From the NCBI RefSeq assembly GCF_026340465.1, contig NZ_JAPEPC010000001.1, positions 4,965,001 through 5,029,000 on the forward strand: a stretch of 64,000 bases of DNA, given 5' to 3'. Positions 17,454 to 21,489 of the stretch are shown here, piece by piece (the first letter of the stretch is position 1; each line of letters opens with the position of its first letter). Source of the stretch: Streptomyces sp. NBC_01306 (GTDB taxonomy: Bacteria; Actinomycetota; Actinomycetes; Streptomycetales; Streptomycetaceae). Under the pieces are notes generated by a model, which had not been told where the DNA came from, made no database searches, and worked only from the letters and a program-made list of their open reading frames with translations. The position numbers and the translations under genes were made by a program.

Positions 17454-17523
17454 ACAGCGAGGGGGCACAGCAAGAAGGGCGACCAGCCGGCTGGTCGCCC
17501 TTCTTGCTGTGCCCCCTCGCTGT
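17454..17523. terminator. Perfect 70-bp palindrome acting as terminator
   Basis: Two 35-nt arms with no spacer, perfectly complementary over the full length and centred at 17488/17489 on CCGG. Placed 35 nt after the isomerase stop codon and before the encapsulin operon promoter. As RNA it gives an exceptionally stable hairpin; as DNA it can extrude a cruciform. Confidence 0.9.
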
Positions 17524-17775: not shown

Positions 17776-19185
17776 ATGACCGTTGAGACCGGCCCGGAAG
17801 CACAGCTGGAGCCATCCCCGCAGTCCAGTCTGAGCACGGCGGCTGCCCGCAACCTCGCCACCACGACCAAGTCCGCCCCGCAGATGCAGGAGATCACCTC
17901 GCGGTGGCTGCTGCGGATGCTCCCCTGGGTGGAGACCAAGGGCGGCACCTACCGGGTGAACCGTCGTCTGACCTACACCGTCGGTGACGGGCTCATCGAG
18001 TTCGTCCAGGACGGTGCCGGAGTCCGGGTGATCCCCCGCGAGCTGGGCGAACTGGCCCTGCTGCGCGGCTTCGACGATGTCGGCGTGCTGACCGCGATCG
18101 CCGACCGGTGCGTCCAGCGCGACTTCCGCGCGGGCGAGGTGCTGGCCGAGCGGGGGAACCTCGCCGAGCAGATCCACCTGGTCGCCCACGGCCGGATCAA
18201 GCAGACCTCCGCGGGCAAGTACGGCGACGAGGTCTCCGTGGCCCTGCTCGCCGACGGCGACCGGTTCGGGGAGAACGCCCTTCTGGACACCGACGCGAGG
18301 TGGGACTACACAGCCACTGCCGAGACCTCCGGCACCCTCCTCACCCTGTCCCGCGCGGATTTCGACGCCGTGGTGTCCGGCGCGCCGGGTCTCCAGGCCC
18401 ACCTGGAGCAGTTCGGCTCGCTCGCTCTCCGGCCGCAGACCCGGCACGGCGAGGCCGAGATCGCGATGTCGGCCGGCCACACCGGCGAAGCCGTGCTGCC
18501 GGGTGCCTTCGTCGACTACGACCTCAACCCGCGCGAGTACGAACTCTCCGTCGCGCAGACCGTTCTGCGCGTCCACACCAGGGTCGCCGACCTCTTCAAC
18601 GGGCCGATGAACCAGACCGAGGAGCAACTCAGGCTCACCGTCGAGGCGTTGCGGGAGCGCCAGGAGCACGAGCTGATCAACAACCGGGAGTTCGGTCTGC
18701 TCCACAACGCCTCCTTCAAGCAGCGGATTCAGACCCAGTCGGGACCGCCCACCCCCGACGACCTCGACGAGCTGCTCTGCCGCCGCCGCGGCACCAAGCT
18801 CTTCCTCGCCCACCCCCGGACGATCGCGGCGATCGGGCGCGGGTTCAACGCCTGCGGGCTCTACCCGGACCACGTCGACCTCGGCGGCCAGCAGGTCCCG
18901 GCCTGGCGCGGGGTTCCGATCCTGCCCTGCAACAAGATCCCCATCAGCAAGGACAACACCAGCTCGATCCTTGCCATGCGTACCGGCGAGGACGACCAGG
19001 GCGTCATCGGGCTGCATCAGACCGGCCTGCCGGAGGAGTACGAGCCGGGCCTTTCGGTGCGCTTCATGGGCATGAACGAGCAGGCGATCATCTCGTACCT
19101 GGTCACCACCTACTACTCCGCCGCCGTCCTGCTGCCCGACGCGCTCGGCGTGCTGGAGAACGTACAGATCGCCCGCAGGCCCTAG
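17776..19185 (+). CDS. eshA: Family 2B encapsulin shell protein with cyclic-nucleotide-binding domain (EshA-like)
   Basis: A 469-residue protein of the EshA type, now recognised as family 2B encapsulin: an HK97-fold shell subunit with an inserted cyclic-nucleotide-binding domain. ATG at 17776 follows AAGGAGAG by 8 nt. Residues 1-35 are disordered-looking; 40-92 and 205-469 form the HK97-type part (including [19 protein letters not shown], about 301-319); 95-205 is the CNB domain, with a phosphate-binding cassette region RFGENALLD at 163-171, Glu166 and Arg175 in the expected places. The C-terminal segment has the typical [18 protein letters not shown]. The downstream terpene synthase is its expected cargo. 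Named after S. griseus EshA; whether it binds cAMP here is not shown by sequence. Confidence 0.92.
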
Positions 19186-19241
19186 GGGCTGTCCGGCCCC
19201 CAGTCCCGGGACAGTCCACCCACCTGACCAAGGAGCTACGG

Positions 19242-20396
19242 ATGCCCGATCCTGGGCCATCACTTCTGCAGCCGAGCGCTGCTCTGCAACGGATCCTGTG
19301 CGGCCCCAGCGGTCTGGGTACGGCGAGCCTGCACCTGGGACGGCGCGCGGAACTGCCGGCTCCTGCCGAGCCCGAGCCCGAGACCCAGCCCGGGACCGAG
19401 ACCGAGGCGTCGGTGGAGGGCACCCCGATCCCGGGCCTCTACTACCACCCGGTGCCGCCCCCCGACCCGGCGCGGGTGGAGGAGGTCAGCCGGCGGATCA
19501 AGGTGTGGGCGGTGGACGAGGTCCAGGCGTACCCCCCGGAGTGGGAGGACCAGTTCGACGGTTTCTCCGTCGGCCGCTACATGGTCGCCTGCCACCCGGA
19601 CGCGCCCACCGTCGACCATCTGATGGTCGCCACCCGGCTGATGGTCGCCGAGAACGCGGTCGACGACTGCTACTGCGAGGACCACGGCGGCTCACCCGTC
19701 GGACTCGGCAGCCGGCTCCTGCTGGCACACACGGCTCTGGACCCTCTGCACACGACGGGGGAGTACGCGCCGGAGTGGGCGGACTCGCTCCAGTCGGACG
19801 CGCCCCGGCGGGCCTACCGCTCGGCCATGGAGTACCTCTGCCGGCAGGCCACCCCCTCGCAGGCCGACCGGTTCCGGCACGACATGGCCCGTCTGCATCT
19901 GGGGTATCTGGCCGAGGCCGCGTGGGCCGAGACGGATCACGTTCCCGAGGTGTGGGAGTACCTGGCGATGCGCCAGTTCAACAACTTCCGTCCCTGCCCC
20001 ACCATCACCGACACCGTCGGCGGCTACGAACTCCCCGCCGACCTGCACGCCCAGCCGGCCATGCAGCGGGTCATCGCGCTCGCGGGCAACGCCACCACGA
20101 TCGTCAACGACCTTTATTCGTACACCAAGGAACTCAACAGCCCCGGCAGACACCTGAACCTGCCCGTGGTGATCGCCGAACGTGAGGGCGTCTCCGACCG
20201 TGACGCCTATCTCAAGGCGGTCGAGGTCCACAACGACCTCATGCACGGCTTCGAAAGCGAAGCCGCCGCGCTGGCGGCCGAGTGCCCCGTCCCGAGCGTG
20301 CTGCGTTTCCTCCGGGGAGTGGCCGCGTGGGTCGACGGCAACCACTACTGGCACCAGACCAACACCTACCGATACAGCCTGCCCGATTTCTGGTAA
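19242..20396 (+). CDS. 2-Methylisoborneol synthase (class I terpene cyclase, encapsulin cargo)
   Basis: A 384-residue terpene cyclase turning 2-methylgeranyl diphosphate into the earthy odorant 2-methylisoborneol. ATG at 19242 follows AAGGAG; the same frame is open far upstream but only as a shadow of the shell gene. Metal-binding motifs: acidic DDCYCED at residues 141-147 (the variant typical of this enzyme) and NSE-type NDLYSYTKE at 289-297. The C-terminal WHQTNTYRYSLP segment is also characteristic. Residues 1-75 are Pro/Glu/Gly-rich and probably disordered; in known family 2B systems such a region targets the cyclase into the shell. It lies 56 nt after the shell gene and 15 nt before the methyltransferase gene, indicating one operon. 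Confidence 0.93.
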   Translation: MPDPGPSLLQPSAALQRILCGPSGLGTASLHLGRRAELPAPAEPEPETQPGTETEASVEGTPIPGLYYHPVPPPDPARVEEVSRRIKVWAVDEVQAYPPEWEDQFDGFSVGRYMVACHPDAPTVDHLMVATRLMVAENAVDDCYCEDHGGSPVGLGSRLLLAHTALDPLHTTGEYAPEWADSLQSDAPRRAYRSAMEYLCRQATPSQADRFRHDMARLHLGYLAEAAWAETDHVPEVWEYLAMRQFNNFRPCPTITDTVGGYELPADLHAQPAMQRVIALAGNATTIVNDLYSYTKELNSPGRHLNLPVVIAEREGVSDRDAYLKAVEVHNDLMHGFESEAAALAAECPVPSVLRFLRGVAAWVDGNHYWHQTNTYRYSLPDFW

Positions 20397-20411
20397 GGAG
20401 CGGACTTCACC

Positions 20412-21290
20412 ATGACCAGCACCGAGCTCACCACTGACGCCCCCGTTTACATCCCGGGCCCGGCGTCGCCGTACCAGGGTGACATCGCCCGATACTGGGA
20501 CCGTGAGGCCAGGCCCGTGAACCTGCGTCTCGGCGACGTCGACGGGCTCTACCACCACCACTACGGCATCGGCGACGTCGACCACGCCGCACTCGGGGAC
20601 GCTCGCGACAGCGAGTACGAGAAGAGGCTGATCGCCGAGTTGCACCGCCTGGAGTCGGCACAGGCCGAAGTCCTCCTGGACCACCTCGGCCCCATCGGGC
20701 GTGACGACACGCTCATGGACGCCGGCTGCGGCCGGGGCGGTTCGATGGTGATGGCGCACCAACGGTTCGGATGCAAGGTCGAGGGCGTCACCCTGTCGGC
20801 CAAGCAGGCCGAGTTCGGCAACCGGCGTGCGCATGAACTCGGCATCGACGACCACGTCCACGCCCGGGTGTGCAACATGCTCGACACGCCCTTCGAGACG
20901 GGGCAGGCAGCGGGCTCGTGGAACAACGAGTCGAGCATGTACGTCGACCTGGACGACCTCATGGCCGAGCACTCCCGTGTCCTCGGGGTCGGCGGCCGCT
21001 ATGTGACCATCACCGGCTGCTGGAACCCGCGTTACGGCCAGCCCTCGAAGTGGGTCTCGCAGATCAACGCGCACTTCGAGTGCAACATCCACTCCCGCCG
21101 GGAGTACCTGAAGGCCATGGCCGACAACCGTCTCGTACCGCAGGCCATCGTCGACCTGACGGCGGCGACGCTGCCCTACTGGGAGCTGCGGGCCACGTCC
21201 TCGCTGGTCACCGGCATCGAGGAGGCGTTCATCAACTCGTACAAGGACGGCTCGTTCCAGTACCTCCTGATCGCGGCCGACCGCGTCTGA
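20412..21290 (+). CDS. Geranyl diphosphate 2-C-methyltransferase
   Basis: A 292-residue S-adenosylmethionine-dependent methyltransferase adding a methyl group at C2 of geranyl diphosphate to make the cyclase substrate. SAM motif I is DAGCGRGG at residues 103-110. Upstream, ARYWDREARPVNLRLGDVDG and the HHHYGIGD segment (about 48-55) are typical of this family, related to sterol C-methyltransferases. ATG at 20412 follows AAGGAG, 15 nt after the cyclase stop. A 19-bp terminator at 21449 ends the operon. Assignment rests on sequence and on the diagnostic neighbour. Confidence 0.92.
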   Translation: MTSTELTTDAPVYIPGPASPYQGDIARYWDREARPVNLRLGDVDGLYHHHYGIGDVDHAALGDARDSEYEKRLIAELHRLESAQAEVLLDHLGPIGRDDTLMDAGCGRGGSMVMAHQRFGCKVEGVTLSAKQAEFGNRRAHELGIDDHVHARVCNMLDTPFETGQAAGSWNNESSMYVDLDDLMAEHSRVLGVGGRYVTITGCWNPRYGQPSKWVSQINAHFECNIHSRREYLKAMADNRLVPQAIVDLTAATLPYWELRATSSLVTGIEEAFINSYKDGSFQYLLIAADRV

Positions 21291-21448: not shown

Positions 21449-21489
21449 TGCGGAGGGGGCCCGGTCCGGTGGACCGGGCCCCCTCCGCA
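21449..21489 (+). terminator. Terminator of the 2-methylisoborneol operon
   Basis: A perfect 19-bp GC-rich stem (21449-21467 with 21471-21489) with a 3-nt loop, 158 nt after the methyltransferase stop; it may also stop minus-strand transcription from the rbs operon. Confidence 0.88.

Follow-up and report, generated by a model that had tools for sequence, protein, structure and literature searches.

Shells of Family 2B encapsulins have been shown, in relatives of the protein described here, to self-assemble into icosahedral particles (PMC12407261). Family 2B operons with terpene cyclases number 904, many of them with C-methyltransferases, and the operon type was described in 2021 (PMC8346489). 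In Streptomyces venezuelae, eshA-mibA-mibB forms a single operon activated by BldC (PMC6428758), and in S. coelicolor expression of eshA and of its paralogue eshB rises during development (PMC3878966). The S. griseus shell has a solved structure, PDB 9BHU (PMC12407261, in agreement with the Foldseek annotation), and synthesis of 2-methylisoborneol (2-MIB) inside a shell is reported by the title of Andreas & Giessen (2024, Nat Commun 15:9715). Here we characterize an operon of this kind in a 64,000-nucleotide stretch of Streptomyces sp. NBC_01306 (contig NZ_JAPEPC010000001.1, positions 4,965,001 to 5,029,000), referred to hereafter as the window, in which all positions are given. The operon encodes the shell protein EshA, 2-methylisoborneol synthase (MIBS) and geranyl diphosphate 2-C-methyltransferase (GPPMT). 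We take PDB 9BHU to belong to the 2024 Andreas & Giessen paper. The S. griseus study reportedly found that the shell is loaded with 2-MIBS via the N-terminus of the enzyme, and that it does not bind cyclic AMP (cAMP).

The three genes lie on the + strand, separated by spacers of 56 and 15 nt, and each start is preceded by AAGGAG, as read by eye. The original prediction of a shell, cyclase and methyltransferase operon with these gaps was borne out by the coordinates and by curated models for all three genes, each of which exceeded the NCBIfam cut-off of 400 bits set for its model. The first gene (17776–19185) encodes an EshA-type Family 2B encapsulin shell protein of 469 aa, which scored 754 bits against NF041163 (family 2B shell) and aligned over residues 1–469, its full length, with PDB 9bhu (843 bits). 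A SrpI-like shell domain (PF19307) spans residues 219–467 (1e-136, Pfam), and the three matches together identify an HK97-fold shell. The second gene (19242–20396; 384 aa) scored 510 bits against NF041167, the family 2 encapsulin terpene cyclase cargo, and 654 bits against the solved 2-methylisoborneol synthase PDB 3v1x, and carries the motifs DDCYC at 141 and NDLYSYTKE at 289. The third (20412–21290; 292 aa) encodes GPPMT, with 477 bits against the equivalog-level model NF041943 and the S-adenosylmethionine-binding motif DAGCGRG at 103. Curated families and a solved homologue matched along its full length thus support the assignment as shell, cargo and substrate-making enzyme, and the locus is an orthologue of an already published 2-MIB encapsulin system, ordinary as a locus.

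MIBS also carries a cargo tag of the type expected in Family 2B terpene cyclase cargo, which the original prediction had not mentioned. The sequence GPSGLGT occupies residues 21–27 of its N-terminus (19302–19322, + strand), and 2-MIBS-like cyclases have in their unannotated N-terminus the consensus GPTGLGT, put forward as a possible targeting sequence (PMC8346489). The 75-residue N-terminus had been described as Pro/Glu-rich; the proline content stands (16 Pro), but the label is loose, since Leu (9) and Gly (8) exceed Glu (7), with Ala also at 7. A scan of named genomes with MIBS gave 289 relatives, of which the best 80 loci were taken; a GPxGxGT tag occurs in 80/80 of their MIBS open reading frames (ORFs), and its position 60–220 residues before the DDxYC-type motif was confirmed in 79, all but L114. 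In the 292 aa of GPPMT no GPxGxGT tag was found, and there is therefore no sequence reason to place this enzyme inside the shell. Elsewhere in the genome, degenerate tag DNA gave 2 exact matches, as against 3 for the reversed pattern used as control; both matches lie in ORFs that look by eye like secreted peptidases and were rejected as cargo.

We are highly confident that this is a 2-MIB encapsulin operon of the S. griseus type, comprising a shell, a tagged MIBS inside it, GPPMT and an inserted domain that does not answer to cAMP. Gene identity, gene order, the tag and the divergence of the cassette described below come from the present analysis; shell assembly, the outer position of the inserted domain and its lack of cyclic nucleotide binding are drawn from published relatives. 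By analogy with those relatives, EshA would self-assemble into a Family 2B shell, with its cyclic-nucleotide-binding (CNB)-fold domain outside over the two-fold pores. MIBS would be packed inside via the N-terminus bearing GPSGLGT, as is said of S. griseus. GPPMT would make 2-methylgeranyl diphosphate, probably outside the shell, and this substrate would enter through the pores, to be cyclised to 2-MIB within the shell. The CNB-fold domain may shape the pore and may bind another ligand. Several points weigh against this reading. The AlphaFold model of EshA was poor (mean predicted local distance difference test score 58, predicted template-modelling score 0.40, from a 40-row alignment) and was left out of residue-level claims. 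Foldseek run with this model returned 9bhu as top match (‘Streptomyces griseus Family 2B encapsulin shell’; TM-score 0.31–0.37), a result that depends on the poor model, so that it is the sequence alignment with the solved relative that carries the HK97 assignment. Moreover, eshA is reported to be dispensable for 2-MIB formation (PMC6428758), which implies that the shell is inessential for the chemistry.

This last report also favours the view that the shell serves as a scaffold or in development and can be dispensed with, MIBS being loaded incidentally. After four loci at contig edges (L048, L050, L096 and L108) had been left out of the 80, an intact shell gene beside MIBS, along with the methyltransferase, was present in 59 of the 76 assessable loci; the remaining 17, which lack one, likewise speak for a dispensable shell. 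These 17 include L059, even though an EshA-class shell is found at another place in its genome, and L072, even though it is itself a shell–MIBS fusion ORF in a draft. Shell remnants were detected by tblastn in six of them (L040, L041, L042, L068, L110 and the fused L072). The tag, however, is still constrained at these loci. Over its seven codons, shell-less loci differed by a mean of 2.60 silent and 0.55 replacement differences per pair (136 pairs, 17/17 loci), as compared with 2.56 and 0.44 where MIBS adjoins an intact shell gene (1653 pairs, 58/59 loci). GLGT was retained in the tag of 15 of the 17 shell-less loci, the exceptions being L051 and L065 (GPSGPGT), which are sisters on the tree. 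In L041, L042 and L110 the shell has decayed to fragments of 41–71% identity, while the 13-residue tag blocks differ by silent changes only. Together with the similar constraint, this indicates that the tag persists after the adjacent shell gene is lost, which speaks against incidental loading. A Family 2B shell above the cut-off is present in 78/78 distinct genomes behind the MIBS loci, so that all the shell-less genomes keep one elsewhere, but the same is true of 35/36 sampled Streptomyces relatives and the count says little alone. On balance, we consider this view of a dispensable shell with incidental loading improbable. In Streptomyces sp. ms191, the source of L072, the fusion ORF (L072:1783-3930) joins shell residues 1–315 to MIBS with the tag GPRGLGT; it stems either from a deletion or from misassembly.

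The inserted domain of EshA spans residues ~97–213 (18064–18414, + strand; limits approximate), as judged from the Pfam match, from CNB-fold chains matched by the insertion in alignment and in Foldseek, and from the E-loop placement in relatives (PMC12407261). The PF00027 cNMP-binding domain itself covers residues 115–200 (3.3e-15) and precedes the SrpI-like match. For comparison, 166 shells were aligned and those identical over residues 97–440 were merged, leaving 149 distinct Family 2B shells: 67 of EshA class (A), 29 of a class that we label EshB by likeness (B), 42 of the two-component class (T) and 11 others. The residue numbering of EshA was verified (F164-G165-E166 and A174-R175-W176). 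Glu166 (18271–18273), in the phosphate-cassette-like stretch, is Glu in 57/67 class A shells and in 21/82 other shells. Arg175 (18298–18300) aligns with the cassette Arg of the Plasmodium-type PKG chain 5ezr and is variable among shells, with Arg in 32/67 class A shells and 4/82 others. The adjacent Trp176 (18301–18303) is invariant in 149/149; 5ezr has a gap at this position in domain 1 and other residues there in domains 2 and 4.

The original prediction proposed that the domain gates odorant synthesis, with Glu166 and Arg175 kept and cAMP or another ligand as the signal. In its strict form, cAMP or cGMP would bind the inserted domain and open or close the two-fold pore, thereby gating 2-MIB synthesis. 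The CNB fold, the presence of both residues in this EshA and the placement of the domain outside over two-fold pores in relatives (PMC12407261) are all consistent with such a switch. The pair is nevertheless not a feature of the family: Glu166 and Arg175 occur together in 29/67 EshA-class shells and are missing as a pair from the other 38 and from all 82 shells of other classes. In addition, the Family 2B insertion domain is stated to bind no cyclic nucleotide, with an Andreas & Giessen preprint cited in support (PMC12407261). Given the published binding data and the variable cassette, gating by cAMP was rejected, and we regard it as very nearly excluded. What these data do support is a divergent CNB-fold domain with an invariant Trp176 and a variable Arg175, which should not be taken for a cAMP switch; study should focus on the invariant Trp. 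Binding of some other small ligand that tunes the pore is a more serious possibility, also put forward by the authors of PMC12407261, and one to which we give somewhat less than an even chance. In its favour, every one of the 149 distinct shells retains the domain, with Gly161 and Gly165 as invariant as Trp176. These residues may be structural, however, and the cassette varies between classes. Mean majority-residue conservation of the cassette (residues 162–182) did not exceed that of the rest of the domain in class A (0.813 versus 0.826) or class T (0.601 versus 0.688), and did so only slightly in class B (0.806 versus 0.755). The HK97 parts of class A shells reached 0.931 and 0.921.

The persistence of the tag at the 17 shell-less loci, taken with the count of shell pairs, suggests that MIBS may be loaded in trans where its own shell gene has been lost. 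A head-to-tail pair of shell genes was present in 14/17 shell-less as compared with 3/57 shell-bearing genomes (Fisher p ~9e-10, descent ignored). Three shell-bearing genomes (G083, G090 and G124) in which two shells lie 3–4.5 kb apart on opposite strands were excluded from the pair count. At two pair loci examined, L152 and L155, a xylulokinase above the cut-off is encoded immediately upstream or no more than 5 kb away on that side. A gene sharing its opening motif occurs in 14 of the 20 pair loci retrieved (3 of the 20 from other relatives). A suspected break in the second shell of the pair in G066 and G068, flagged by one TGA, was rejected, since the ORF is a complete 462-aa shell. Among the genomes of L149–L168, no EshB-class shell was seen among the classified shells, which are only part of the total, where a head-to-tail pair is present; the pair and the EshB-class shell may exclude each other.

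A Family 1 encapsulin has been proposed to load a cargo whose gene lies apart from its operon, a bacterioferritin (PMC8346489); for Family 2B, no such statement was found in the excerpts of the encapsulin literature searched. It is conceivable, although we lean against it, that GPxGLGT acts as a portable ticket among shared Family 2B shells, with MIBS going in trans mostly to the two-component shell of the xylulose-kinase type, and with an EshA-class shell having in one case moved beside a geosmin-synthase-like cyclase. A number of results count against this lead. The association of shell loss with the pair is a raw count confounded by clade. On the MIBS and GPPMT tree the state of the neighbour changes at least 9 times but provides only 3 well-supported independent contrasts, and in the tree-based test on these, the pair changed on average in the same way in 1.6, in the opposite way in 0.0 and showed no difference in 1.3, which is not significant. 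Three of the 17 shell-less loci (L049, L059 and L072) have no pair, and among the 14 pairs that of G075 includes a shell broken over two reading frames. In G096, two partial matches to shells fall on different contigs and may belong to a hidden pair, which if counted would raise the shell-bearing figure to 4/57 (p ~4e-9).

A draw of 150 genomes from the genus, of which the 49 new genomes with a cyclase match were examined for shells, added little to this lead. Its 53 cyclase loci comprised 37 with an intact shell upstream (their type unconfirmed as MIBS), 2 with a partial shell, 3 at contig edges and 11 flagged as having none. When most of the flagged loci had been read, the single new shell-less true MIBS locus was that of G198, which has both a pair and GPSGLGT, while G157, G162 and G171 have an intact shell as well as a pair. 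At least 5 genomes of the draw (G143, G148, G183, G188 and G214) repeat the named set by coordinates. Seven cyclases were dropped as other types at 200–251 bits (G142, G149, G152, G200, G207, G248 and the second cyclase of G162). G201 and G174 were also dropped, since there MIBS is at a contig edge and a close EshA-like shell stands at the end of another contig. In G156 and G236 a shell lies beside a second cyclase in the other orientation, and G216 and G214 are contig edges. Four genomes of the set of relatives were left uncounted, as their cyclases are of other types (203–371 bits to this MIBS): G022 has neither a shell beside its cyclase nor a pair, G036 has a broken shell and a pair, and G018 and G035 have an intact shell and a pair.

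The shell that may have moved is that of G067, the genome of L059, where at L198:8774-12494 an EshA-class shell lies directly upstream of a two-domain geosmin-synthase-like cyclase and MIBS stands alone. This cyclase bears GPTGLGTAAAR at its C-terminus, and the arrangement is a further sign that shell and MIBS have become un-linked. We collected 30 geosmin-synthase-like genes from 30 genomes chosen non-randomly (17 with shell-less MIBS, 12 others and this strain). A shell lay within 1.5 kb of 3/30, and P.G.GT occurred in the last 60 residues of 23 of the 27 without a close shell. The geosmin-synthase-like protein of this strain was searched for a C-terminal tag and none was found; its linker reads APRGLGTSAA, and trans loading of this protein by EshA is a weak proposition. 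G064 and G061 (L206 and L207) have one additional, unpaired shell of the two-component class, and downstream of it a second geosmin-synthase-like gene whose product carries the tag C-terminally.

The flanks of the operon in the window contain two inverted repeats. A 70-bp palindrome whose 35-bp arms match perfectly, without a loop (17454–17523), lies between the upstream operon and eshA, and is probably the terminator of the genes upstream. The hairpin that follows the operon (21449–21489; 19-bp arms, 3-nt loop) is its probable terminator. Outside Streptomyces, the same set of shell, MIBS and methyltransferase genes was observed in Kitasatospora (L090 and L091).

The locus itself thus adds one orthologue to a published system, and the pattern of a tag without a shell is the part worth testing. 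Were trans loading true, it would name a candidate cargo for two-component shells without a known one, and would explain why MIBS persists as a tagged cargo after loss of its own shell gene. The closest described system is the S. griseus EshA/2-MIBS Family 2B encapsulin (PDB 9BHU, with 9BHV and 9BI0 of the same sequence), to which the present shell aligns along its whole length. The cassette reads DARWDYTA in this EshA as compared with DARWSQTA in S. griseus; no other substantial difference was looked for or found. The two-component Family 2B shell of S. lydicus (PDB 9BIX and 9BJE; PMC12407261) resembles EshA in its CNB-fold insertion and conserved Trp. It differs in having two shell proteins within a xylulose kinase system whose native cargo is not known (PMC12407261), and the cassette Glu and Arg are both replaced in both of its chains, unlike in this EshA. 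The second shell of this genome (G000:C2:1916951-1918300; L001/L004), to judge by likeness of EshB type, also belongs to Family 2B (771 bits) but falls in a separate clade, and the cargo gene that it adjoins encodes a polyprenyl transferase (NF041169, 487 bits), whereas that of EshA encodes MIBS.

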